From a virus, in the IMG/VR virus record IMGVR_UViG_3300025030_000115, positions 1 to 59,052 of that record: a stretch of 59,052 nt of DNA; one strand, written 5' to 3'. The position numbers were made by a program, and so were the translations under genes. This document shows positions 1,627 to 37,672 of this stretch, piece by piece. Every line of letters starts with the position of its first letter. Positions within the stretch are counted from its first letter, which is position 1. The notes under the pieces were generated by a model. That model was not told the DNA's origin. It saw only the letters and a list, made by a program, of their open reading frames with translations, and made no database searches.

Positions 1627-1640
1627 AAAAGGAGAACTAA

Positions 1641-2441
1641 ATGATCTTTATAGACGGGAAGTTAGTACAATTTGGAATGTTTCCCAACAAGGAATCTAAC
1701 CTGAACTTTAATACTGTAGGATTCCACACCCACAGTGTTATCACCCTGAAGTTTGAAAGTGACCTAGACCTATTCAACCTCTACATCCTTAAAAGTTATA
1801 TGGACGAAAATGGCTGCAGAAGTCCTTATCTAAAGATACTCTACATGCCTTACAGCAGGATGGATAGAAGGAATGAGTTCTATACCTTCAACCTCAAATA
1901 TGTAAGCAATTTTATCAACAGTATGAACTTTGCACAGGTAGAGATATTTGATACACATTCTGACGTTACTTCTGCGTTAGTTGACAGGTGTATCGACAGA
2001 AGTAATATTCCCTATCTGTTTGGTAAATTTCAGAAAGAAGTCGGCACTGAAAATGCCGTCATCATGTACCCTGATGCTGGTGCTCAAAAGAGGTATGAAA
2101 AGCACTTTGCATATCCATCGGTAGTTGGCAAGAAGGCCAGAAGTTTTGGTGACGGAAAGATTTTATCCTACGAAATTACCGGAGACGCTGCTGGTAAAAA
2201 TGTCGTTATTGTTGACGACTTATGTTCCAGAGGCAGTACTTTCATGGGTGCTGCGAATGCTCTGAAAGCTGTAGGAGCAAAAGACTTGTATCTCATCGTA
2301 AGTCACTGTGAGAATACAATTTTAGAAGGCGATGTATTGAGTTCTGGGCTGTTCAAAAAAGTTTACACAACGAATAGCATAATCTCTGAATCCGAAGCTT
2401 CTGATGCTTTCTCTATTCTTAACATTTACGGAGGTAAATAA
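1641..2441 (+). CDS. prs: Ribose-phosphate pyrophosphokinase-like protein (possible Adps of NARP1)
   Basis: By family, this enzyme transfers pyrophosphate from ATP to ribose 5-phosphate to make PRPP. Visible hallmarks are the Prs-type MPYSRMDRR near residues 73-81, a spDaG-like PDAGAQKR, and the PRPP-binding loop VIVDDLCSRGST near 191-202. At 266 aa it is shorter than cellular Prs (about 315 aa). It ends 2 bp before the NAMPT-like gene, so the product probably feeds that enzyme. In phages carrying the NARP1 pathway, the homologous protein (Adps) instead pyrophosphorylates ADP-ribose; sequence alone does not tell me which substrate is used here. The start follows AAAAAGGAGA. Confidence 0.85.
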   Translation: MIFIDGKLVQFGMFPNKESNLNFNTVGFHTHSVITLKFESDLDLFNLYILKSYMDENGCRSPYLKILYMPYSRMDRRNEFYTFNLKYVSNFINSMNFAQVEIFDTHSDVTSALVDRCIDRSNIPYLFGKFQKEVGTENAVIMYPDAGAQKRYEKHFAYPSVVGKKARSFGDGKILSYEITGDAAGKNVVIVDDLCSRGSTFMGAANALKAVGAKDLYLIVSHCENTILEGDVLSSGLFKKVYTTNSIISESEASDAFSILNIYGGK

Positions 2442-2443
2442 CT

Positions 2444-4138
2444 ATGAAAACTAACTTTAAAGTTCCTGCTACCCTCGCCGCAGATTTCTATAAACTTTCG
2501 CACCGGCTACAGTACCCTGCAAAGACCGAGAAGGTCTATAGCACATGGATTCCTAGGACCAGCAGAATTACTTTCGTAGACAAAGTTGTTGCGTTTGGAT
2601 TTCAAGCATTTGTTCAGAAGTACCTTATTGAATACTTTAACGACAATTTTTTCAGCCGTCCTCTAGATGACGTGGTAGCTGAGTATAGCAGGGTAGTTAA
2701 GTACTGTCTTGGAGATAACAATCCAGACACCTCTCACATCGAAGCACTTCACTCTTTAGGTTATCTTCCGATTCTTATTAAGGCAGTTCCTGAAGGCACT
2801 TTAGTTCCTGTTCGGGTGCCTATGCTGACCATTGAAAATACTCACGAAGACTTTGGCTGGCTCACTAATTATTTGGAGACTATAGCTTCCTGTGAACTTT
2901 GGCAGAGTGCTACGAGTGCAACTATAGCTCTTGAGTACAGGAAAATTTTGGATAAGTATGCTGCACTGACCTCTGACATCCCTGAGTTTGTTGACTTCCA
3001 AGGGCACGATTTCTCTATGCGTGGCATGAGTTCTTTGGAGTCTGCAATAACTTCTGGCATGGGGCATCTGCTGTCTTTTGCGGGAACTGACACAATCCCT
3101 GCCATTTTGGGTCTTGAAAATTACTATAACGCTAATATTGAAAATGAACTTGTAGGCTGTTCAGTCCCGGCGACCGAGCACAGCGTGGCCTGTTGTGGCG
3201 GCTCTAGCTCTTCTGAAGAGGAGGCTACTTTTAGGAGGCTTATCACAGAAGTCCACCCTACTGGCATCGTCTCTTTGGTTTCTGATACATGGGACCTTTG
3301 GAATGTTCTTACAAATATCCTGCCAAACCTTAAAGAAGTTATTGACGCAAGAGACGGTAAAGTAGTTATTCGGCCTGACTCTGGAGACCCTGTAGATATT
3401 ATTTGCGGAGTTGCGATAAAATGTTACGATACGCTTGCGGATGCAAAAGAAAGTTTTAAATGGCTGATTCAAGACAGCACTGTGCATGGTGAGCCTGAAG
3501 TCACCGTAGACCTCGACAAGTTAGTATCAGTAGAGGGAGTCACCTATAAGCTGGAAGCAGACATTGGCTGGAACCGTTATGACAAGCAATATTACTACAT
3601 TGACGACATAGATATCACAGCCACTAAAGTAGATAAAACTCCAGCGATGAAAGGGGTCATAGAACTACTTTATGAAACATTTGGTGGGACTGTTAATAGC
3701 AAAGGGTTTATTCAGCTGAGCGATAAAGTGGGGGCTATTTACGGAGACTCTATTATGCTTGAAAGGGCAGAAAACATCTGTAAACGCCTTATGGACAAAG
3801 GATTTGCCTCTACCAACATTGTGCTAGGTATTGGCTCGTATACTTACCAGTACAATACGAGGGACACTTTCGGATTCGCTATGAAAGCTACACACTGTGT
3901 CATTAATGGCGTTGAGAAAAATATCTTTAAAGATCCGATTACAGACGATGGAACTAAAAAATCTCTTACTGGACGTTGTGTTGTACAGAACGTTTGTGGA
4001 TTGTTGTTAACTACTGATGGGTTGTCTGAGTTAGAAGAATATGCTGTGCTTGATAATGTGCTTCAGCCTATTTTCTGCGACGGAGTTTTGTTGGTAGAAA
4101 CTTCACTAAAAGAAATCAGAGAACGAATCAAACAATAA
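2444..4138 (+). CDS. nadV: Nicotinamide phosphoribosyltransferase-like protein (possible Namat of NARP1)
   Basis: The family condenses nicotinamide with PRPP to give NMN, the first step of NAD salvage. Typical NAMPT features are DFYKLSHRLQYP near the N-terminus, the FQGHDFSMRG segment, TEHS near residue 243, and the phosphate-binding VIRPDSGDPV near 307-316. At 564 aa it is longer than human NAMPT (491 aa). It is tightly coupled to the Prs-like gene. No NMN adenylyltransferase is seen in the window, so NMN would have to be finished by a host enzyme, unless the pair makes NAD directly from ADP-ribose as in NARP1. Confidence 0.87.
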   Translation: MKTNFKVPATLAADFYKLSHRLQYPAKTEKVYSTWIPRTSRITFVDKVVAFGFQAFVQKYLIEYFNDNFFSRPLDDVVAEYSRVVKYCLGDNNPDTSHIEALHSLGYLPILIKAVPEGTLVPVRVPMLTIENTHEDFGWLTNYLETIASCELWQSATSATIALEYRKILDKYAALTSDIPEFVDFQGHDFSMRGMSSLESAITSGMGHLLSFAGTDTIPAILGLENYYNANIENELVGCSVPATEHSVACCGGSSSSEEEATFRRLITEVHPTGIVSLVSDTWDLWNVLTNILPNLKEVIDARDGKVVIRPDSGDPVDIICGVAIKCYDTLADAKESFKWLIQDSTVHGEPEVTVDLDKLVSVEGVTYKLEADIGWNRYDKQYYYIDDIDITATKVDKTPAMKGVIELLYETFGGTVNSKGFIQLSDKVGAIYGDSIMLERAENICKRLMDKGFASTNIVLGIGSYTYQYNTRDTFGFAMKATHCVINGVEKNIFKDPITDDGTKKSLTGRCVVQNVCGLLLTTDGLSELEEYAVLDNVLQPIFCDGVLLVETSLKEIRERIKQ

Positions 4139-4150
4139 GGAGGTAGTACA

Positions 4151-4525
4151 ATGAAGCACCTTAAAATACGGGCAGAGTACAGACCTGCCTCAAAGGAAGT
4201 AGCAGTAACTCTACTAGAGCAGTCACATTTCGGCAGTGATTTCGGTAGGTTAGAATATGCTTTTAATAATGATCCTAAAAATGCTTGTGTATTTAAACAT
4301 AAGGGCATAGCAATATACAGCAGTGGGTTCTATAAACACGGGCCTCAGTATTTCTTTAAAGGTAAATACCCAAACACCGTAGAAAAAATTACCACTTGGC
4401 TCTGTGTAGGAGCTGATGCCATAAGATTTGAACGAGCTAAAGTAGAAAACTCTGTGCCGATTGGTGACTGGCCAGCCTTGAAAGCAGCTATTGAAGCCTA
4501 CAACGAATGGGGAGCCAACCAATGA
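4151..4525 (+). CDS. Small tandem-paralogue protein 1
   Basis: First of four adjacent related genes of unknown function. It is 124 aa, opens with MKHLKIRAEY and ends with AYNEWGANQ, patterns repeated in the next genes. A central EQSHFGSDFGR motif recurs as QSH, QTH or QTH followed by an FG. No signal peptide or membrane helix is seen. The start follows AAGGAGGTAGTACA. The stop overlaps the ATG of copy 2, giving coupled translation. Confidence 0.85.
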   Translation: MKHLKIRAEYRPASKEVAVTLLEQSHFGSDFGRLEYAFNNDPKNACVFKHKGIAIYSSGFYKHGPQYFFKGKYPNTVEKITTWLCVGADAIRFERAKVENSVPIGDWPALKAAIEAYNEWGANQ

Positions 4526-4895
4526 AACACATAAAAATTAGAGGTGAACTTGTAAATGAAGTTAAGAATAAAGTTAAAGTGACAATTTTGGCACAGAGCC
4601 ACGTCCATGATGAATTTGGTCAGGCATGGGGGCATGAAGGTGGTACCAGAATGTTTGAGAAAGTAGGGTACGGCTTGTACGCTCCTAGAGGTTGGCAGCC
4701 TATGGTGTATGAGGAAAAATCATTTTTTGACGGAACCTTATTTTTAATGAGCGAGGAAGTTATTAAAGATGCTAGCGAAGCTAAGTCTTTTACCTGCACT
4801 TTAGAGGAATACAAGCATCTCAAAGAGTTAGTTATAGAATACAACGAATGGGGAGCCAACCAATGAAACACATAAAAATTAGAGGGGAACTTGTA
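4499..4895 (+). repeat. 56-bp direct repeats at paralogue gene junctions
   Basis: Bases 4499-4554 and 4840-4895 are the same 56-bp sequence apart from one substitution (T at one position, G in the other). Each copy covers the 3' end of one paralogue, the overlapping stop/start, the internal Shine-Dalgarno and the first codons of the next. The offset is 341 bp, exactly one gene length. This is the mark of a recent tandem duplication by unequal recombination. Confidence 0.9.
4522..4866 (+). CDS. Small tandem-paralogue protein 2
   Basis: Second paralogue (114 aa). I place the start at the ATG in ATGA at 4522, preceded by GGGGAG 8 bases upstream, rather than an in-frame ATG 15 bases earlier, because MKHIKIRGEL then aligns with copies 1 and 3. 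It ends in EYNEWGANQ. The function is unknown. Its first and last bases lie within the 56-bp direct repeats shared with copy 3. Confidence 0.85.
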   Translation: MKHIKIRGELVNEVKNKVKVTILAQSHVHDEFGQAWGHEGGTRMFEKVGYGLYAPRGWQPMVYEEKSFFDGTLFLMSEEVIKDASEAKSFTCTLEEYKHLKELVIEYNEWGANQ

Positions 4896-5207
4896 GGCCC
4901 TAAAAGAGACAGGGTAAAAATAACCATTCTGGAACAGACACATTTCTTTAAAGATTTTGGTAATGTTACGGATAAAATGGCTGGCTCTGCCTTCACTCAC
5001 GGAGAAGGACTTTTAAACAGTGACGGCGAAGAGCCAGCATATAACAGTAGAAATATGTCCATTCATGACGGTAACTATTACCACTGGCTTTTTGTTAATG
5101 GGCGGCCGCACCACAAAGGCGATGTTGGAGAACTTTTAACACTAGAGGCTTGGGCAGTTTTGAAAGAAACCGTGAAGGCTTACAACGAATGGGGAGCAGA
5201 TAAATGA
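4863..5207 (+). CDS. Small tandem-paralogue protein 3
   Basis: Third paralogue (114 aa), starting MKHIKIRGELVG like copy 2 and ending AYNEWGADK. The middle of the protein differs from the other copies, while both ends are nearly constant. It overlaps both neighbours by 4 bases (ATGA). Conserved ends with a variable core fit diversifying selection after duplication; the function is unknown. Confidence 0.85.
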   Translation: MKHIKIRGELVGPKRDRVKITILEQTHFFKDFGNVTDKMAGSAFTHGEGLLNSDGEEPAYNSRNMSIHDGNYYHWLFVNGRPHHKGDVGELLTLEAWAVLKETVKAYNEWGADK

Positions 5208-5560
5208 GCAGACACCTAAAAATTAAATCACAATTAAATCCAGACAAAAAGACAGCAACTCTCACATGGATTTCTCAAACTCATTTTGGAAGCAATTTTG
5301 GGAACAGTAGGCCGGTTGGTGTAGAGTACGATGACTTTTTTGACCCTAAATGCGCCCACACCGTTGGTAACTTCAGTCTCGTAAGTCATCATAATAATAC
5401 ATTTAGGAAGGGTAATCTCACGTCTTTAGGAACTAGAAATAATAAATGGTTTCTATTGCCTAACCGAAAACCATGCGGTCAATTAACTACAACTATCGCA
5501 GTAGAAGACTGGCCTTGGATTAAAAAGCTGGTGGAATCTTACAATGAATTTTATAAATAA
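5204..5560 (+). CDS. Small tandem-paralogue protein 4
   Basis: Fourth and most diverged paralogue (118 aa). It keeps the lysine-rich opening (SRHLKIKSQL), the QTHFGSNFGN motif and a SYNEFYK ending. It overlaps copy 3 by 4 bases. The function is unknown. Confidence 0.85.
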   Translation: MSRHLKIKSQLNPDKKTATLTWISQTHFGSNFGNSRPVGVEYDDFFDPKCAHTVGNFSLVSHHNNTFRKGNLTSLGTRNNKWFLLPNRKPCGQLTTTIAVEDWPWIKKLVESYNEFYK

Positions 5561-5572
5561 GGAGGCACCTAA

Positions 5573-5722
5573 ATGACTAGTGAAGAGAAAGTAGAAGTTT
5601 TTAAGTGGCTAAGGAATATCTGTATTGTATCCGATTGCCCTCCCGCCAAACTGGAGTGCTACGAGTGTCCAATTGGAAAGGCTGAGAAAGAATACAAGGA
5701 GGCTATAGAAAATGATAATTGA
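5573..5722 (+). CDS. Small Cys-containing protein (49 aa)
   Basis: ATG 5573 follows a strong AAGGAGG with 7-base spacing. The 49-residue product has four cysteines (CIVSDC, then ECYEC), which could bind a metal, and a charged Lys/Glu-rich tail. It overlaps the next gene by 11 bases. No family is recognised. Confidence 0.7.
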   Translation: MTSEEKVEVFKWLRNICIVSDCPPAKLECYECPIGKAEKEYKEAIENDN

Positions 5723-6026
5723 CTATTGTAAAGATGGAGAGGCTGTTGGGGATCTTAGTGCTAAAGATTACCTGAGAAAGAAATTCAAAGAATATCCAGA
5801 CTGGCACATTCACACATCTTCTGAATGTGTTATCTTAGCTGCCAGAACTTTGGTTGTAGAAGGTGAACTTCCGGCTGATAAGATAAAATTTTGGCACGAA
5901 CACAAGTTCGTTAGTAATATAAATGAAGAGGGCAGGCTTACGCATCCCCCAAAAGATTTCTGTGACTTCACTCTTAGGTGCTTAGGGCAAATATTAAGAG
6001 GAAAAGTAATAAGGAAACTCCCATGA
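5712..6026 (+). CDS. 104-aa protein resembling the C-terminal segment of a DUF3696/OLD-type ATPase
   Basis: The segment HIHTSSECVILAARTLV followed by VEGELPADKI, a strand-rich stretch, NEEGRL and P.DFCDF resembles the H-loop and tail of SMC/OLD-like ATPases with a DUF3696-type end (ETHS..LI.R....V.EG...I......G.....P.GF). Nothing of the Walker A, signature or Walker B regions is present, so it cannot be an ATPase by itself. This resemblance is my own reading by eye. It overlaps its neighbours at both ends within the operon. Confidence 0.75.
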   Translation: MIIDYCKDGEAVGDLSAKDYLRKKFKEYPDWHIHTSSECVILAARTLVVEGELPADKIKFWHEHKFVSNINEEGRLTHPPKDFCDFTLRCLGQILRGKVIRKLP

Positions 6027-6331
6027 AAATGCAATCCACTAGAGAAAAATACCTAGTAACTAAAATGGGAGTTCAGTATAAACACTGCACAGATAACTAC
6101 ATTTTCACTGGGCAAGGGATGTGGTCTGAAGGAGAGTACTTCTACAAACTATTTAAATGGGCGCAAAATAGTTCTTGGTGGGGTTATCTGAAAAGGGATT
6201 ATATAGGTGACGAGGGAGATGGTATTTTAGGCCCACTTTACTATCCCATAGATGAATCCTACATAGACACTGAGATGCTGGCTAACGCAATCTACTCCTA
6301 TTTTATTAAGAAAGAGGAGGTTCCATTTTGA
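6023..6331 (+). CDS. Hypothetical protein, aromatic-rich (102 aa)
   Basis: The start is ATG 6023, overlapping the upstream stop as ATGA and preceded by AAGGA at 7-base spacing; an earlier in-frame ATG inside the previous gene lacks a ribosome site. The product is rich in Tyr and Trp (SSWWGYLKRDY, GPLYYP) with no recognised motif. It overlaps the helicase start by 4 bases. Confidence 0.75.
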   Translation: MKMQSTREKYLVTKMGVQYKHCTDNYIFTGQGMWSEGEYFYKLFKWAQNSSWWGYLKRDYIGDEGDGILGPLYYPIDESYIDTEMLANAIYSYFIKKEEVPF

Positions 6332-7644
6332 TAGAGGTTAGACATGTAGCTCGCGTCCAACTACCTGAGGATGAAAATGTAAAAGCCATGATTTTAAACA
6401 TGTTTTCGTACACTTCCAGAACCGGAGAATCTTTTCATAACTACTCTTACAAAGATGGAGTAGCCTATCTTCCCCCTTGCCTTCCAAAATTAGAGGTAGT
6501 TGCTAGTCTGTTAAACGAAACGGTAGTGGATAACAGAAGTTCCGGGCAAAATATATCCTCGCCTTTCATACTAAATCCAGAATTTACTTTAAGGGATTAT
6601 CAAGTAGAACCCGCCAGACAACTTTTTGAACATGCTAAAAATAACAAATCAGCAACTTTAAGTGCAGGCTGTGGAACTGGAAAAACTATAGTAGTGTCTC
6701 ATGCGGCTGGTCGTTTAAATAAGAAGATCCTTGGTATTTTAGATCAGTCGAATTTATTTCAAAATTGGGCGATTGCTTTTGATCTAATCTACGGTAAAAA
6801 AATTCAGCAACTAAAGTCAACGGACCTTGTATTCTCAGACGTGTGCATAACAACGTTTCAGATGCTACACAGGAATCCTGAGTTACTTTCTAGGATCAGG
6901 AAAGAATTCGGCTGTCTAATTTTAGATGAGTGTCATGTCGTAAAGGCTGCTACCTTCAAACAAGTTTTATCCAGACTAGATACTCAATATCGTGTAGCAT
7001 GTACGGCCACTTTCTTTAATAAAAACCTACCTTTAGGGATTCTTGAGGACTGGCTCGCCCCGGTGTCTGTTAAGATGGTAGATCAAGACGCCCTAACTCC
7101 AGAGATACGTTGGATAGACACAGGAGTAATTTGGTCTTCAGAAGAGCCTATGGACTACGCTTCCTACGTTCTTCCAGCACTTGCAGCAGATTCTAAAAGA
7201 AATGCTGTTATATTCAGTATCTTAAAACAGTGTTTGGAAGAGAAGCGTAGAACAATAGTTTGCTGCATCACAGTAAAACAAGCTAACTTTCTACATGAGA
7301 TTATGGTTAAATCTGGCGCACGATCTACCGTGTATACTGGAAGTACTACTGCCAAGAGGGACTTGGAAGTCAAAACTAAAATGAATTCTGGAGAGTTAGA
7401 CTTCATTTTTGCTTCCATGAAATTTAACAAAGGTACCGATATAGACACAGCGGATTGCATGGTTTTGGTAAGACCCAACAACAATCTTAAAGACACCCAA
7501 CAATTAACTGGGCGAGTAGTTCGGAAGGTTGAGGGGAAACCAAAACCAATAGTTTATGATTTTGCTGATGTAGGTTACTTAGCAGAAATTTTTGTAAGAA
7601 ACCGTAAAAAGTTCTATAAGAGCCTTAACTACGAAGAAGGGTAG
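6328..7644 (+). CDS. Superfamily 2 DNA helicase (UvsW/SSL2-like)
   Basis: This is an ATP-dependent nucleic-acid helicase. Walker A GCGTGKT is at residues 114-120, the DECH box at about 200-203, motif III TAT near residue 231, and motif VI QLTGRVVR near 396-403. The layout fits phage recombination helicases of the UvsW type that remodel forks and R-loops. It starts at TTG 6328, chosen because GAGGAGG lies 7 bases upstream and no better start exists. The preceding stop overlaps it by 4 bases. The specific role is inferred from the family. Confidence 0.88.
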   Translation: MIEVRHVARVQLPEDENVKAMILNMFSYTSRTGESFHNYSYKDGVAYLPPCLPKLEVVASLLNETVVDNRSSGQNISSPFILNPEFTLRDYQVEPARQLFEHAKNNKSATLSAGCGTGKTIVVSHAAGRLNKKILGILDQSNLFQNWAIAFDLIYGKKIQQLKSTDLVFSDVCITTFQMLHRNPELLSRIRKEFGCLILDECHVVKAATFKQVLSRLDTQYRVACTATFFNKNLPLGILEDWLAPVSVKMVDQDALTPEIRWIDTGVIWSSEEPMDYASYVLPALAADSKRNAVIFSILKQCLEEKRRTIVCCITVKQANFLHEIMVKSGARSTVYTGSTTAKRDLEVKTKMNSGELDFIFASMKFNKGTDIDTADCMVLVRPNNNLKDTQQLTGRVVRKVEGKPKPIVYDFADVGYLAEIFVRNRKKFYKSLNYEEG

Positions 7645-7736
7645 GCTAGGGTATGAGTGAGTTAAAAAGTCCCTCTACGGACAATCCTCGTTCGTTCTAG
7701 AGGTGGTTGTGGAGGATAATATGGAGGGTTATTACT

Positions 7737-7949
7737 ATGGAAAACACTATGACTGAGAGAGAAGCAGGCAATAAATTCTGCCCAGAAGCTTTATACAAAT
7801 TTAACATGGAAATTGCAACTTGTAAAGGCTCCGACTGTATGGCTTGGCGGTGGCATTCTGAGGAGACACTAGAGAAGGGCTATGGAGAGAAAGATGAGGT
7901 TATATCTTATGGGTACTGTGGAAAGGTGCCTTTAACATGGAATTGGTAA
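7737..7949 (+). CDS. Small Cys/Trp protein (70 aa)
   Basis: ATG 7737 is preceded by GGAGGG at about 9 bases. The core FCPEALYKFN...CKGSDCMAWRW resembles a recurring small phage protein with paired cysteines, of unknown function. Its TAA stop lies inside the GGTAATTACC palindrome core. The 92 bp before the gene hold only a weak 6-bp stem (7672-7677 with 7698-7703). Confidence 0.75.
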   Translation: MENTMTEREAGNKFCPEALYKFNMEIATCKGSDCMAWRWHSEETLEKGYGEKDEVISYGYCGKVPLTWNW

Positions 7950-9394: not shown

Positions 9395-10381
9395 GTGAAA
9401 ATTATAAGAAATTTGAAGGTACCTACTGGAAATATTTTAGTGGTGTCTGGGAAGTTAGGTCAGTTAGAATTACTCTCCTTAGCAGACTACGGGCAAGCTG
9501 TGAATTTGAACCAGAACAAAGCTGTCGAAGACGGGACCCCTCTACTCCCTCTAGCAGAAAAATGGGTAATTACCATTTCAACGCAGTATGGGTGTTCTAT
9601 GGGCTGTAGTTTTTGTGATGTTCCTAAAGTCGGCAAAGGGATTAATGCTACCTACGAAGACTTACGCGACCAAGTTATTACAGGACTTGCTCTGCATCCT
9701 GAAGTAAAAGAAACCAAAAGACTTAACATTCATTTTGCAAGGATGGGCGAGCCTTCTTGGAATACAGAGACTTTAACGTTTGCTAGAAATTTACGTGAAG
9801 AGGTGCGTCCATATGTTGGAAATTCGTTAGTTCATCCAGTAGTCTCAACTATGATGCCTAGGTATAATTTAGGGTTATTTGATTATGTAAAAGAGTGGAT
9901 GGAAATTAAGAATCATGTTTATGACGGAGACGCTGGGCTACAACTTTCAATAAATTCTACAAGTGATTCTGAAAGGTATTCTATGTTCTCAGGGAATGCC
10001 CATACACTAGCTTACATTTCTAGGTTTATGGGAGAAATTGAAAGGCCAAAGGGTAGGAAAATTACCTTGAACTTCGCTGTGGCAGGTTATGAAATAGATG
10101 CTAGAAAATTGAAAGACCTATTTGACCCACAGTACTTTATCTGTAAGTTGACTCCAATGCATAAAACTACTGAGGCTACTGAAAATGGTATTGAGACGGC
10201 TGGGGATTACACCACACCGTACCCTTACTTAGAGACGGCTAAAGAACTTAGGGAAGCTGGCTTTGATGTTCTTACTTTTATAGCTTCAAAAGATGAGGAC
10301 GAAGGCAGGGTCACTTGTGGCAATGCTATTCTCTCTGGTACACTACCACACAAATACGAAGAATTGGAGGTTGGGTACTGA
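9395..10381 (+). CDS. RlmN-like radical SAM protein
   Basis: The CxxxCxxC iron-sulphur motif (Cys67, Cys71, Cys74 in STQYGCSMGCSFCD) and the order of blocks, HFARMGEPSWN, VVSTMMPR, LQLSINS, KLTPMH and TCGNAI, match RlmN-type rRNA/tRNA adenosine C2-methyltransferases. The methyl-carrying Cys355 equivalent appears kept (Cys308 in TCGN). The position of RlmN Cys118 is Thr60, and there is no other cysteine upstream of the cluster. The chemistry may therefore differ from methyl transfer. The GTG start follows AGGAGGAAGACTTA. Confidence 0.78.
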   Translation: MKIIRNLKVPTGNILVVSGKLGQLELLSLADYGQAVNLNQNKAVEDGTPLLPLAEKWVITISTQYGCSMGCSFCDVPKVGKGINATYEDLRDQVITGLALHPEVKETKRLNIHFARMGEPSWNTETLTFARNLREEVRPYVGNSLVHPVVSTMMPRYNLGLFDYVKEWMEIKNHVYDGDAGLQLSINSTSDSERYSMFSGNAHTLAYISRFMGEIERPKGRKITLNFAVAGYEIDARKLKDLFDPQYFICKLTPMHKTTEATENGIETAGDYTTPYPYLETAKELREAGFDVLTFIASKDEDEGRVTCGNAILSGTLPHKYEELEVGY

Positions 10382-11055: not shown

Positions 11056-12063
11056 TTAATTTATTTTCTTTCCGCCTTTCGGACGTATACGGACGCCATT
11101 TCTGATTAGGACATTACGGGTTCCGTTGTAAGATAAACCCACAGATAAAGCAGTAGCTGGTATGGTATAACCCTCTTCATACAGCTTTACTATCTTTAGT
11201 TCTAATTCTTTTGTTGTACTTTGTTGCTTAATAGCTATCCCGTTAGATTTTAAAATTCTACTAATAAGAACTGAAGAAGCACCGAATAGTTCCTCTAATT
11301 CTGAAAAAGAAACTCCTGCGGTATACTTAGCTACTATCTCATCTGAATAGCATTCGAGTCTTCTTAGTCTTTCTGCGCTTTTGTTACTGTATTTTATTAT
11401 TTTTGGTACACTACGTCTAAGTATTCTGTATATCTCAGACCTAGACACACGGTATTTATCTATTAGACAGCCTACACTGATCCCAGACTCGTATAAACTA
11501 GAGATTTGGTTAACTTCCTGTTCTGTGAGTTTAGAACGTCGTCTAAGCACCAAGTCAGAGTCGGTATCATGCAACGCTCGATGTATGGCTGGCTTGGATA
11601 CGGCGTAGTGGTCAGATATTTTCGCAACAGAGTCACCATTTAGGTACATTTTCTTTACTTCTAGTTTATCTTTACGCGATAACTTAGAAGTAAAACCGTG
11701 GTAGGCTCCTCTTCCGCCGGGGTGTAGATTAAGTAGTGGTCCTTGTTTTATTAAGGCTCTGCCTATGCATTGGATCATTTGTTCTTCTAGTACATAAGCT
11801 TCTTCGTCAGAAAGATTGTCTTTAATTTTGATAATGTAGTCTTTAGGATCTATTCCAGAATCGAGTATACTAATAATTTTCTTCTGTTTCTTAGTTTTAT
11901 TTCTACGTTTTGCTTCAACTATGTGATGAAACATTCTCTTTCTTGAGCCCTTTCCTACATAGAAAGGCTCGTATAGAAAAGAAACATTTAGGTCTGGGTA
12001 GCTAAATTTTCCTGGCTTGGTTGGGTCGGTATAAACGTAGAGATAGCAATTTTTGATTTTCAT
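11056..12063 (-). CDS. GIY-YIG homing endonuclease with helix-turn-helix repeats
   Basis: The N-terminal GIY-YIG-type nuclease domain (CYLYVYTD...EPFYVGKGSRKR..H, LEM-3-like) is followed by four helix-turn-helix-like repeats of roughly 45-55 residues (for example VAKISDHYAVSKPAIHRAL), which suit recognition of a long DNA target. I take ATG 12063 rather than 12084 because AAAGGA lies 6 bases before it. It is the only minus-strand gene in the left arm and has its own promoter at 12113-12144, as expected for a free-standing mobile gene. The cleavage site is not identified. Confidence 0.82.
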   Translation of the reverse strand: MKIKNCYLYVYTDPTKPGKFSYPDLNVSFLYEPFYVGKGSRKRMFHHIVEAKRRNKTKKQKKIISILDSGIDPKDYIIKIKDNLSDEEAYVLEEQMIQCIGRALIKQGPLLNLHPGGRGAYHGFTSKLSRKDKLEVKKMYLNGDSVAKISDHYAVSKPAIHRALHDTDSDLVLRRRSKLTEQEVNQISSLYESGISVGCLIDKYRVSRSEIYRILRRSVPKIIKYSNKSAERLRRLECYSDEIVAKYTAGVSFSELEELFGASSVLISRILKSNGIAIKQQSTTKELELKIVKLYEEGYTIPATALSVGLSYNGTRNVLIRNGVRIRPKGGKKIN

Positions 12064-12112
12064 GTTAAGTCCTTTGGATTGCATAAGTTAATTGAGACGA
12101 GATATTCACTAA

Positions 12113-31867: not shown

Positions 31868-31895
31868 ATTTGAAAATTTGGTAGGAAGGTGTTTT

Positions 31896-32795
31896 ATGGG
31901 TTCGTTTAAAGATTTAACTGGACAACGGTTTGGTAAATTAACTGTATTAGGTAGGGTCCATAAGACAGCGGGTAATAAGAGAACCAAGTTCTTATGTGTA
32001 TGTGATTGTGGGAACCACTCCGAAGTTCTTAGTCAGAATTTAACTAGTGGAAAAACTAACTCATGTGGATGCTTGGCTCCTTTACCTGAGGAGGCTTACC
32101 TCAACAAAACGTTCAATGCACTTACGGTAGTATCTAGAGTTGAAAGTAAAGGCAATAGTGTAATGTTACTGTGTATGTGCGCTTGCGGTAAAACTAGTAC
32201 TGTTTCTTTTAGTAATCTGAAATCAGGCAGTGTCAAATCTTGTGGGTGTGGTATCCATAGGGCTTTAAGCACCACTACTATAAATACGGATTACCCCTTT
32301 CGCACCAAAAAGAATCACGATATGGTAGGAATGGTTGTAGGGAAACTAACAGTCATTTCTAAAATTGGACCGAGAGGTAGAGATACCTACTGGTTTTGTC
32401 TCTGCGAATGTGGCGGTACAACAGAAGCCACTACCCACTACTTGAATAAAGGACTAAGGCTTTCATGTGGATGTTTGCACCACCGGACGGGCAAAGATAA
32501 TCCTACGTATAGAGGAAATGTGCCTCCTATTAGGGGAGGTTGTGATTACGAGTCATGGCGATCCTCAGTTATGCAACGAGATAATTATACGTGTGTTTCT
32601 TGCGGGGCTAAAAGAAAGATACAGGCACACCATATTATGTCCTTTAACAAATTTGGCGCATACAGATTGTTGGACATTAACGGAGTTACCTTGTGCAAGA
32701 AGTGCCACAAAGAATTTCACGGCAGCTATGGGTATGGAAATAACACACTTGGCCAGTTTTTAGAATGGCAACAACTAAAAGGATTTAAATTATGA
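31896..32795 (+). CDS. HNH homing endonuclease with three zinc-binding repeats
   Basis: Three related modules of about 55-60 residues (LTGQRFGKLTVLGRV...CDCG...SCGCL, and two more) form DNA-reading zinc domains. Then comes an HNH nuclease: CVSCGAKRKIQAHHI...GVTLCKKCHKEFHG. This is the standard make-up of free-standing phage homing endonucleases. I start at ATG 31896, with AGGAAGG upstream, so residue 2 onward matches the first repeat. Likely a selfish gene inserted beside the resolvase. Confidence 0.88.
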   Translation: MGSFKDLTGQRFGKLTVLGRVHKTAGNKRTKFLCVCDCGNHSEVLSQNLTSGKTNSCGCLAPLPEEAYLNKTFNALTVVSRVESKGNSVMLLCMCACGKTSTVSFSNLKSGSVKSCGCGIHRALSTTTINTDYPFRTKKNHDMVGMVVGKLTVISKIGPRGRDTYWFCLCECGGTTEATTHYLNKGLRLSCGCLHHRTGKDNPTYRGNVPPIRGGCDYESWRSSVMQRDNYTCVSCGAKRKIQAHHIMSFNKFGAYRLLDINGVTLCKKCHKEFHGSYGYGNNTLGQFLEWQQLKGFKL

Positions 32796-34917: not shown

Positions 34918-36816
34918 ATGTACATTCACACCAGTAGTTATGATAAGGAATTTGTAGAGCTGATGGAGTACCTCAGAGGTAAATATCCAGCTAAGTTGTT
35001 CGATGTAGACGGCATTGGGAAGCAGCTTGATATGTGCCAATTCTCCAAGGATTTTTTTGCAGCTACCACTACCGCAGATGCTAGTGTGGATGCCAACAGT
35101 AATGTTGTAGATGTTAGTAATATCACCTACAACACGGAATTACCTAAGCCCTTTTTTAAACTTAATAGCTATTTCATTCTTTGGAAAGAGATGAGAAAGT
35201 TGTACGGGTCCGAAGTGGCTAACTCAGCTATAGAAAAACAAATTACAGGAAGCCTATATTTTCATGATGTACACGGTATTGCTTCGGCTATGAGTTATTG
35301 TTTTAACTACTCTACTTATGACATTATGCTTCTAGGGCTCCCTATGGTGACTAAAATAAAGTCGGTCCCACCTAAGCATTTGTATAGCTTCAAGTCTCAG
35401 CTAGAGCAGTTCGTAGTGCTTGCTGCTAACAGTACCCTAGGAGCTACTGGACTGGCTGATTTATTTATTGTAATGTCTTACTATGTGGCTAATATTTTAA
35501 GAACTAAATCAGATGCTGGCTTTAAATTTAGTACAGAAGAAGACTGCTGGAAATACGTGGCAGAGAATTTGGTATCTTTTATATACACCATCAACCAGCC
35601 GCTAAGGGCGTCTCAGTCCCCATTCACTAATGTCAGTATTTATGACAGTGAATTTTTAAGCAGTCTCTGTCCTAACTACATATTCCCAGACGGCAGTACT
35701 CCTAATATTAGTATTGTTAAACAGATTCAGGAATTGTTCTTAGATATTATGAACGAAGAAATGAAGAGAACCCCAATCACCTTCCCAATATCTACCGCCT
35801 GTTTTGCAGTAAATGAGGACAAGGAGATTATTGATGAAGAGTTTGCAGAAATTATTGCTAAGAAAAATCTAGAGTTTGGTTTTATCAATATATATTGCGG
35901 AAAATCTAGTACGCTCTCTAGTTGCTGTAGACTCAGAAGTGACACAGAGCACGAGTATTTTAACTCTTTTGGGTCTGGTAGTACTAAAATTGGGTCTCTA
36001 GGTGTAGTAACTGTAAACCTGCCTAAAGCCGCTGTGGAGAGTAATAAAGATCGTACCAAATTTCTGGATGCTGTAAGGAACTTAGTAGGTACTGCTGCTA
36101 GAGTTAACCACACTAAACGAGCGGTAGTAAAAAAGAGAATAGACCAAGGCATTCTTCCACTCTACTCATTAGGCTTTATGGACTTGAGTAAGCAATATTC
36201 CACAGTCGGAGTTAATGGCCTGAACGAATGTTGCGAGCTGATGGGTTATAATATTTTGACAGAGGAAGGCCAAGAATTTGTAAGTAGAATACTTGAAGTT
36301 ATAAATTCTGAAAACGATAAATTCCAAAAGGCTTACAAAACTCCACACAATACAGAGCAAATTCCTGGAGAAAACGTAAGCATTAAGTTGGCTGAGAAAG
36401 ATAGAATGTTGGGTTTTAATGACAGGTATGACCTTTACAGCAATCAGTTTATTCCGCTCACTACTAAAGCAGATGTTTTAGATAGGATAAAGCTGCAAGG
36501 TATTTTTGATAGTCAGTTCTCTGGAGGAGCCATCTGTCACGTTAACGTAGAACAGAAAATAGAAGACTACCGACAAGTTGTGGCTTTAATTAAGTCTTGT
36601 GCTAAATCTGGGGTAGTATATTGGGCGATCAACTTTAATATTCAGAGATGTGAAGAGGGTCACATGTCCGTAGGAAAACTAGACTACTGTTATTGCGGAG
36701 CTAAGATCACTGATAATTTTACTAGGGTGGTGGGGTTTTTGGTCAACGTTAAAGCTATGGCCCCAAAACGTAGAGAGGTAGATTATCCTAATAGGCAGTT
36801 TTATAAGGAAGTGTAG
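34918..36816 (+). CDS. nrdD: Anaerobic ribonucleoside-triphosphate reductase
   Basis: Makes deoxynucleotides without oxygen by glycyl-radical chemistry. Seen: the Cys-rich loop STLSSCCRLRSD, the SLGVVTVNLPKAA strand typical of NrdD, YWAINFNIQRC near the end, a metal-binding group (C...YCYCG), and the radical loop RVVGFL with Gly near residue 606. At 632 aa it is somewhat short for the family. Start ATG 34918 follows AAAGGGAG. NrdG follows after an HNH gene. Suggests replication in anoxic hosts. Confidence 0.9.
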   Translation: MYIHTSSYDKEFVELMEYLRGKYPAKLFDVDGIGKQLDMCQFSKDFFAATTTADASVDANSNVVDVSNITYNTELPKPFFKLNSYFILWKEMRKLYGSEVANSAIEKQITGSLYFHDVHGIASAMSYCFNYSTYDIMLLGLPMVTKIKSVPPKHLYSFKSQLEQFVVLAANSTLGATGLADLFIVMSYYVANILRTKSDAGFKFSTEEDCWKYVAENLVSFIYTINQPLRASQSPFTNVSIYDSEFLSSLCPNYIFPDGSTPNISIVKQIQELFLDIMNEEMKRTPITFPISTACFAVNEDKEIIDEEFAEIIAKKNLEFGFINIYCGKSSTLSSCCRLRSDTEHEYFNSFGSGSTKIGSLGVVTVNLPKAAVESNKDRTKFLDAVRNLVGTAARVNHTKRAVVKKRIDQGILPLYSLGFMDLSKQYSTVGVNGLNECCELMGYNILTEEGQEFVSRILEVINSENDKFQKAYKTPHNTEQIPGENVSIKLAEKDRMLGFNDRYDLYSNQFIPLTTKADVLDRIKLQGIFDSQFSGGAICHVNVEQKIEDYRQVVALIKSCAKSGVVYWAINFNIQRCEEGHMSVGKLDYCYCGAKITDNFTRVVGFLVNVKAMAPKRREVDYPNRQFYKEV

Positions 36817-36817
36817 T

Positions 36818-37672
36818 ATGATTGTGGATGAACTTATACGAATAAAACTGAATAATACAAATATCGAACACTTCAAATCTTTGGGTTATGAAGTCAGCAG
36901 TAGGTATGGTGAGATTATAGAAGTCAAGAGCACAGACTTATCTATATACAGTCATGTAAAAGTGAGAGCTGTATGCAATCTATGTGGAAACCAAATTTTG
37001 ATTTCAAACAGTAAGCACACACGATCAATACTTGGGAGGGGTGAGTACTTGTGCTCACCCTGCTCAAAAGGAAAATTCTCACTGGAAGAAGTGAGAGCTA
37101 TGTTAGAGGGTGCGGGGATGTTCCTGGTCAGTACTGAATATAAAAACAACAAATCTCCTATACAGTTTGTATGCCGTACTCACCCAAACACCTTACAAAA
37201 AATGTGTATTAGTGATTTCAGAAAGGGAGCTAGATGTAAGTTATGTACCGGAGGCGATTATAACAAATGGCGCAGAAAGGTAAGGGAGCTGACTACCGTA
37301 CAGTACCTGAGACAATGCACTGACGGGTGGAAGGCATATACAAAAGATTTCTGGTGTGACACTTGTGTGATTTCTAAAAACCAATCCAAAAGAAATCACG
37401 TACATCATATAATTAAGCCCTTCAAAGAAATTACTAATGAAACCTTTCAGGTGACTCAGCTGGAAGAAAGAAAATTTATAAAGGAATACTCGAAAGAAGA
37501 GTTAGAACTGCTGACCAACACTTTTAATACTATACACAAAAGTTATGGAATAGGTATTGTTATGTCACCAGAACTTCATTACAAATTTCATGCAAAGTAC
37601 GGGAAGCAAGAAAATCTAGAAGATTTTGCTGAATTTTGGGAAGAACATTCCAGCAACAGGGTTACATGCTAA
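36818..37672 (+). CDS. HNH homing endonuclease between nrdD and nrdG
   Basis: N-terminal zinc-binding parts (CNLCGNQIL...CSPCSKG; FVCRTHPN...CKLCTGG) precede an HNH-type core with CDTCVIS, HVHHIIKPF and MSPELHYKFHAKYG. The gene begins one base after nrdD and overlaps nrdG by 7 bases. Homing endonucleases commonly invade phage nrd operons. Base composition looks AT-rich like its surroundings. Confidence 0.85.
   Translation: MIVDELIRIKLNNTNIEHFKSLGYEVSSRYGEIIEVKSTDLSIYSHVKVRAVCNLCGNQILISNSKHTRSILGRGEYLCSPCSKGKFSLEEVRAMLEGAGMFLVSTEYKNNKSPIQFVCRTHPNTLQKMCISDFRKGARCKLCTGGDYNKWRRKVRELTTVQYLRQCTDGWKAYTKDFWCDTCVISKNQSKRNHVHHIIKPFKEITNETFQVTQLEERKFIKEYSKEELELLTNTFNTIHKSYGIGIVMSPELHYKFHAKYGKQENLEDFAEFWEEHSSNRVTC

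Follow-up and report, generated by a model that had tools for sequence, protein, structure and literature searches.

Defences of the TIR, SIR2 and SEFIR type act through NADase effectors, which cleave NAD+ to ADP-ribose and nicotinamide. Phage and bacterial NARP1 modules counter this loss with two enzymes, Adps and Namat. NrsAB of Vibrio phage ICP1 restores NAD+ and defeats SIR2-HerA (PMC11559045), while the NARP1 pairs of Bacillus phage SPbetaL1 and of Paenibacillus foliorum restore NAD+ and defeat Kongming and SPARSA, respectively (PMC12774641). A structural study of SPbetaL1 Namat published in 2026 lists 20 residues contacting NAD+ and defines an adenine-binding selectivity clamp, composed of (i) a helix with the signature GSX(T/S)X(Q/N)X(N/V)TRD, carrying aromatic residues at positions 3 and 7, and (ii) a stacking residue of the Arg40 type in the β1-β2 loop; according to the same source, no structure of any Adps exists (PMC12774641). 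A related enzyme, HdNadV of Haemophilus ducreyi, yields NMN in E. coli if a true Prs is expressed alongside it (PMC6095924).

The DNA analysed here (the window) is the whole IMG/VR virus record IMGVR_UViG_3300025030_000115, 59,052 bases in length, which is probably a fragment of a larger phage genome. It carries a pair of genes whose sequences make it highly likely that they constitute a NARP1 module rebuilding NAD+. Judged by its residues, the pair is very probably an ordinary, functional module assembled from an already known kit; every sequence-level test of NARP1 membership that was applied gave a positive result. The Namat-like protein also contains an insert that varies between related proteins.

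The gene pair and its surroundings

The positions of the two genes and of their main features are given in Table 1. Both ORFs start with ATG and are separated by 2 bases on the same strand, a spacing that counts as adjacent for NARP1, with no gene between them, and each is preceded by a strong RBS-like GGAG(G) sequence placed 6–9 bases upstream. The 266-aa product of the first gene matches PHROG 619, “ribose-phosphate pyrophosphokinase” (E 1e-63), and the 564-aa product of the second matches PHROG 448, “nicotinamide phosphoribosyl transferase” (E 7e-197). The ORFs, their spacing, the RBS-like sites and these family matches confirmed an earlier sequence-only reading of the locus, which had described a two-gene unit encoding a Prs-like and a NAMPT-like protein.

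Table 1. Features of the adps–namat pair (window coordinates).
Feature	Position	Strand	Basis
RBS-like GGAG before adps	1631..1634	+	read from sequence
adps, ADP-ribose pyrophosphate synthetase-like, 266 aa, Prs fold family	1641..2441	+	
Adps loop DDLCSRGST, at the site of the true-Prs 5′-phosphate loop DD..DT(A/G)GT	2214..2240	+	alignment of 58 Adps/Prs; role inferred
RBS-like GGAGG for namat, within the adps 3′ end	2430..2434	+	read from sequence
namat, nicotinamide ADP-ribose transferase-like, 564 aa	2444..4138	+	
Selectivity-clamp loop YSTWIPRTSR; Arg41 corresponds to stacking Arg40 of SPbetaL1 Namat	2537..2566	+	role from PMC12774641
His246, aligned with the conserved catalytic histidine	3179..3181	+	alignment
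Arg310, corresponding to catalytic Arg306 of SPbetaL1 Namat	3371..3373	+	alignment
Exchangeable insert type A (...HGE...WNRYDKQYYYID...), residues ~323–401	3406..3647	+	
Selectivity-clamp helix GSYTYQYNTRD, residues 464–474	3833..3865	+	signature GSX(T/S)X(Q/N)X(N/V)TRD from PMC12774641

An ATP-dependent DNA ligase gene (241–1599) is the upstream neighbour of adps, and the pair is surrounded by a block of nucleotide- and DNA-metabolism genes (ligase, helicase, RNA ligase). Directly 3′ of namat lie four tandem paralogous genes (4151–5560) encoding proteins of 118–124 aa with the shared pattern MKHLKI...EQTHF..FG...YNEWGA; the two that were scanned matched neither Pfam nor PHROG. Evolution is faster in the first copy (dN/dS 0.36). 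Members of this family were also found at 5630–6348, at 7469–7825 and, upstream, at 149–679 of IMG/VR UViG_3300025030_000097 (L005), the nearest relative of the window. There, a 367-aa ORF (6362–7465) is situated between the paralogs, and it has no counterpart at that place in the window.

Several other genes of the window deserve mention. The product of a lone minus-strand gene in the early region (11056–12084) has a GIY-YIG nuclease domain and, after it, several helix-turn-helix domains, an arrangement resembling that of homing endonucleases. An HNH endonuclease (31878–32795) matches PHROG 374 in three separate stretches, perhaps through a repeated N-terminal motif. A radical-SAM-like protein (9395–10381), encoded near the RNA ligase and metallophosphoesterase genes, matches PHROG 24834, a family of unknown function, along almost its entire length. 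The anaerobic ribonucleotide reductase gene nrdD (34918–36816), which is followed by a gene for an endonuclease-matching protein (36818–37672), suggests an anaerobic or facultative host. No tRNA genes were found in the window, so tRNAs give no clue to the host. Promoter and terminator scans gave matches at chance level only, and a near-identity search of GenBank phages with the first 25 kb of the window gave no match.

Donor specificity of the Adps- and Namat-like proteins

On the Prs model (ribP_PPkin) the 266-aa protein scores 94–95 bits, under the cut-off of 113. In eight bacterial NARP1 genomes, the copies located near namat score 80–108 bits and the genomes’ own standard Prs 162–416 bits; since the score of the window protein falls within the former band, it was counted for Adps identity. 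Standard cellular Prs copies are 313–345 aa long and the tested SPbetaL1 Adps is 272 aa long. The sequence-only reading had called the Prs-like protein shorter than normal, which holds if it is measured against Prs, but its length is normal for an Adps.

In a tree of 58 sequences, the window protein clusters with the Adps proteins of SPbetaL1 and of Paenibacillus and Clostridium (support 100/99). It is separated there from the ICP1-type Adps as well as from 11 cellular proteins that are Prs or Prs-like. Alignment of these 58 sequences revealed that the ATP-side motifs are retained (PYSRMDRR, the H of DTHSD, and the K..R of the flexible loop), and that the loop DT(A/G)GT, which in true Prs binds the phosphate of ribose 5-phosphate (R5P), is replaced by SRGST. 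The loss of this loop fits an acceptor bearing ADP, instead of a free phosphate, at its 5′ end; family membership and the loop loss together argue for such an acceptor specificity.

The second protein is 61% identical to the tested and crystallised Namat of SPbetaL1 (PDB 9W5W, 9W5X). Its mean pLDDT in the predicted structure is 90.8, and the top fold match of this model is 9W5X/9W5W (E 1e-63), ahead of human NAMPT. The Nampt-like catalytic core is complete (F190, D216, R310, D312 and H246; Phe189, Asp215, Arg306, Asp308 and the catalytic His in SPbetaL1), and 18 of the 20 NAD+-contacting residues are identical. The two differing contacts are Phe392→Tyr, by which the aromatic character is kept, and Ala362→Ser, a residue common among Namats. 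The protein has all three clamp residues by which ADPR-PP is chosen in preference to PRPP (Arg41, Tyr466 and Tyr470), and the clamp helix matches the published signature with both of its aromatics. Both genes are under strong purifying selection, as indicated by comparison with L005 (dN/dS 0.031 for adps and 0.062–0.064 for the two stretches of namat that flank the insert).

In seven Nampts used for comparison, which originate from plasmids and T4-like phages (one is encoded beside an NMN adenylyltransferase gene), LLQ stands where Namats have (T/S)(Y/F)(Q/N), and both aromatics of the clamp helix are missing. A maximum-likelihood tree separated all Namats, including that of the window, from these seven proteins (100/100), with SPbetaL1 Namat as the nearest tested relative of the window protein. 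Odd clamp helices were observed in two other proteins on the Namat side of the tree, both encoded beside an Adps-like gene: GAYMYSFSLSRD in Listeria phage P100plus (locus L041, 2980–4773) and GAFCFSAIVENGNLIVATRD in Lachnospiraceae bacterium A4 (locus L037, 3986–5449). The donor specificity of these two proteins is uncertain.

The position of HdNadV shows how far such trees can be relied upon. This NMN-producing enzyme, whose structure (PDB 9KE8) is the next best solved match after 9W5X/9W5W, is 43% identical to the window Namat and is nested beside it within the Namat clade (its sequence was taken from a printed alignment), yet its three clamp positions are occupied by Glu, Gln and Arg. Similarity and phylogeny therefore do not settle function, whereas the clamp residues discriminate, and phylogeny was rejected as a sole criterion. 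The nesting of HdNadV looks like an apparent reversion from Namat to Nampt; that such a reversion can happen was counted against the NARP1 reading. It also weakens a test named in the sequence-only reading, by which grouping of the two proteins with true Prs and NadV would speak against NARP1: both do group with the tested Adps and Namat, but an NMN-producing enzyme is also found on the Namat side.

These residues bear directly on plain salvage, in which the first protein would make PRPP, the second would join PRPP and nicotinamide to NMN, and a host NMN adenylyltransferase would finish the synthesis. The automatic annotations agree with it, Namat enzymes retain PRPP/NMN activity in vitro (SPbetaL1 Namat produces NMN from PRPP roughly half as fast as human Nampt does; PMC12774641), and the close relative HdNadV works in this way with a true Prs (PMC6095924). 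This alternative, put forward in the sequence-only reading, nevertheless fails on the donor-specificity residues: the window has all three adenine-clamp residues, while HdNadV lacks all three and the seven Nampts lack both aromatics. This is the strongest single argument against plain salvage. Moreover, the first protein scores under the Prs cut-off, lacks the R5P 5′-phosphate loop and groups with tested Adps and not with Prs. Salvage by a plain Prs/NadV pair was thus rejected on the clamp residues, the Prs cut-off and the trees, and we consider it very improbable. Given the PRPP activity of SPbetaL1 Namat, the window pair may still make some contribution to salvage.

The NARP1 reading is in turn favoured by the operon, the clamp motif with its arginine, the catalytic core, both trees and the Prs score, and alignment with the tested enzymes revealed that the pair matches those of SPbetaL1, including the clamp. 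The NARP1-like pair proposed in the sequence-only reading is well supported by these results. In the proposed pathway, Adps would use ATP to transfer pyrophosphate onto the free ribose of ADP-ribose, generating ADPR-PP, from which Namat would form NAD+ in one step with nicotinamide. Such a one-step synthesis needs no NMN adenylyltransferase. A search for this family (PF01467) found none in the window or in the L005 record, both of which may be fragments, while 14 of 14 control genomes were positive; this agrees with the remark in the earlier reading that no such gene is visible. Since NADases release ADP-ribose and nicotinamide, the module would let the phage refill NAD+ after such a defence fires and continue its replication. 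We infer these reactions, expression of the pair during infection and the defeat of defences.

It may also be considered that a NARP1 pair acts as a general metabolic helper, recycling NAD+ lost to the phage’s own enzymes or to turnover, with no defence involved. NARP1 pairs are stable in bacterial chromosomes (Paenibacillus and Clostridium loci), housekeeping roles have been suggested for the chromosomal pairs (PMC12774641), and the window pair lies within a nucleotide- and DNA-metabolism block. However, ICP1 needs NARP1 against an NADase defence and pays a fitness cost for it when that defence is absent (PMC11559045). In addition, no ADP-ribosyltransferase or NAD-dependent ligase was detected among the scanned window proteins, and the DNA ligase belongs to the ATP-dependent family. 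A helper role is accordingly unlikely.

An exchangeable insert in Namat

Compared with SPbetaL1 Namat, the window protein has 73 additional residues. The length of the NAMPT-like protein is due to an insert of ~79 residues (~323–401) following RPDSGDPVDIICG, where SPbetaL1 has a 10-residue loop. At the same site, L005 Namat carries a different, 53-residue insert, and amino-acid identity outside the insert is 94%. The DNA identity of the two records, mostly 80–98% per 60-base block, falls to background at the insert; the divergent segments (242 bases in the window, 164 in L005) have sharp edges. The likeness between the two inserts is borderline (z about 2), and that of L005 resembles the insert of Pseudomonas phage LPS-5 (z 4.6–6.2).

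The window insert belongs to a class (type A) with an almost invariant core, HGE.G...WNRYDKQYYYID, which is retained across very distant Namats and occurs in those of phages or genomes linked to Bacillus, Bacteroides and Clostridium. The remaining inserts were labelled “other”, a label covering several sequence types for which no mutual relation was found, and not a family. On a tree of 47 proteins built without the insert columns, the insert state (type A/other/none) changed at least 16 times and insert presence or absence at least 12 times; these minimum counts hold for this set, which is biased towards type A since the fetch patterns included insert peptides.

Among type A proteins, the dN of the insert mostly exceeds that of the body several times over. 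Insert dS, too, is frequently elevated, a pattern that would be expected of a segment which recombination exchanges but which is generally under constraint. The dN/dS values of the insert are mostly 0.07–0.35; in two sets of pairs they are near 0.7–0.8, and in one of these sets synonymous changes are very scarce. Predicted alone, the insert forms a compact small alpha/beta unit (pLDDT 80). It gave no significant match to the PDB with Foldseek, and with VIA-align the best hits were to unrelated proteins (Z 5.2 or lower, within the range of a common arrangement); one BFVD model matched at E 3e-4 (A0A1C9LVZ4). No significant Pfam family was found, and the only significant PHROG match was to a phage NAMPT entry. 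In a scan of viral contigs for type A inserts, all 33 of the 33 ORFs read were Namats with the insert at the same position; the idea of a mobile domain shared with other proteins is thus unsupported, though the scan used the sole peptide WNRYDKQ and retains that bias.

We tentatively propose, at somewhat under even odds, that the Namat loop after RPDSGDPVDIICG is a site for exchangeable domains of 50–90 residues, swapped as cassettes while the body stays constant, which may serve as a regulatory or partner-binding module or as a decoy against a host factor targeting Namat. Candidate roles are regulation, partner binding and evasion of such a factor. The absence of the insert from the SPbetaL1, KKP_3916, Paenibacillus and ICP1 enzymes, and the fact that tested insert-less Namats work, would suit a neutral spacer loop without function. 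We find such a loop rather doubtful, because the type A core is nearly invariant in very distant Namats, the insert dN/dS is mostly well below 1 despite faster change than in the body, and the insert folds fairly confidently. The word “insertion” is absent from the structure paper (PMC12774641) and the insert is undescribed in the NARP1 literature examined; as far as we have found, the insert and its exchange are new.

Comparison with described modules

The window would add one more uncultivated phage with a module undoing NAD+ depletion. What this locus contributes beyond that is a residue-level case from the clamp, the caution raised by HdNadV and the exchangeable insert. Phage genes annotated as “Prs” and “NAMPT” can be re-read by means of the published clamp residues, even where a tree is ambiguous. 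If the insert is a functional module, it would represent an unexplored point of control or evasion in NARP1, and a swappable decoy would mean that phages and hosts have gone one round further in their contest over NAD+.

Among described systems, the NARP1 of Bacillus phage SPbetaL1 (Adps WIT26982.1, Namat WIT26983.1) is closest, with the same order of two adjacent genes, an Adps of ~40% identity and of the same length class (272 versus 266 aa), and the 61% identical Namat sharing the clamp (R, aromatic, Y) and the catalytic core. It differs in its 10-residue loop, in place of the 79-residue insert, and in having Phe, and not Tyr, at position 3 of the clamp helix. The uncultivated relative L005 (Adps 95% and Namat body 94% identical) has the same neighbours, with the DNA ligase upstream and the paralogous small genes downstream, but differs in its 53-residue insert and in the 367-aa ORF within the downstream row.

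Alicyclobacillus phage KKP_3916 and Paenibacillus NARP1 likewise have adjacent adps and namat genes and the clamp-helix signature, and the N-terminal two thirds of their Namats are 65–69% identical to that of the window; they carry no insert, KKP_3916 has Leu at the position of the clamp-loop Arg, and the Paenibacillus copies are chromosomal, unlike the window pair. NrsAB of ICP1, genetically shown to defeat SIR2-HerA, is the same two-gene module with the clamp helix GSYTYQYVTRD, but its Adps is only ~25% identical, its Namat lacks an insert and Lys occupies the clamp-loop Arg position. RyDEP-extended NARP1 of phage DyoEdafos has a gene for a RyR-domain (PF02026) glycosidase inside the operon, whereas nothing lies between adps and namat in the window; a scan of six records for this domain gave no match, nor did any positive control. 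H. ducreyi NadV (PDB 9KE8, 9KEO), although 43% identical and placed inside the Namat clade, has no adenine-clamp residues (E, Q and R instead) and makes NMN.
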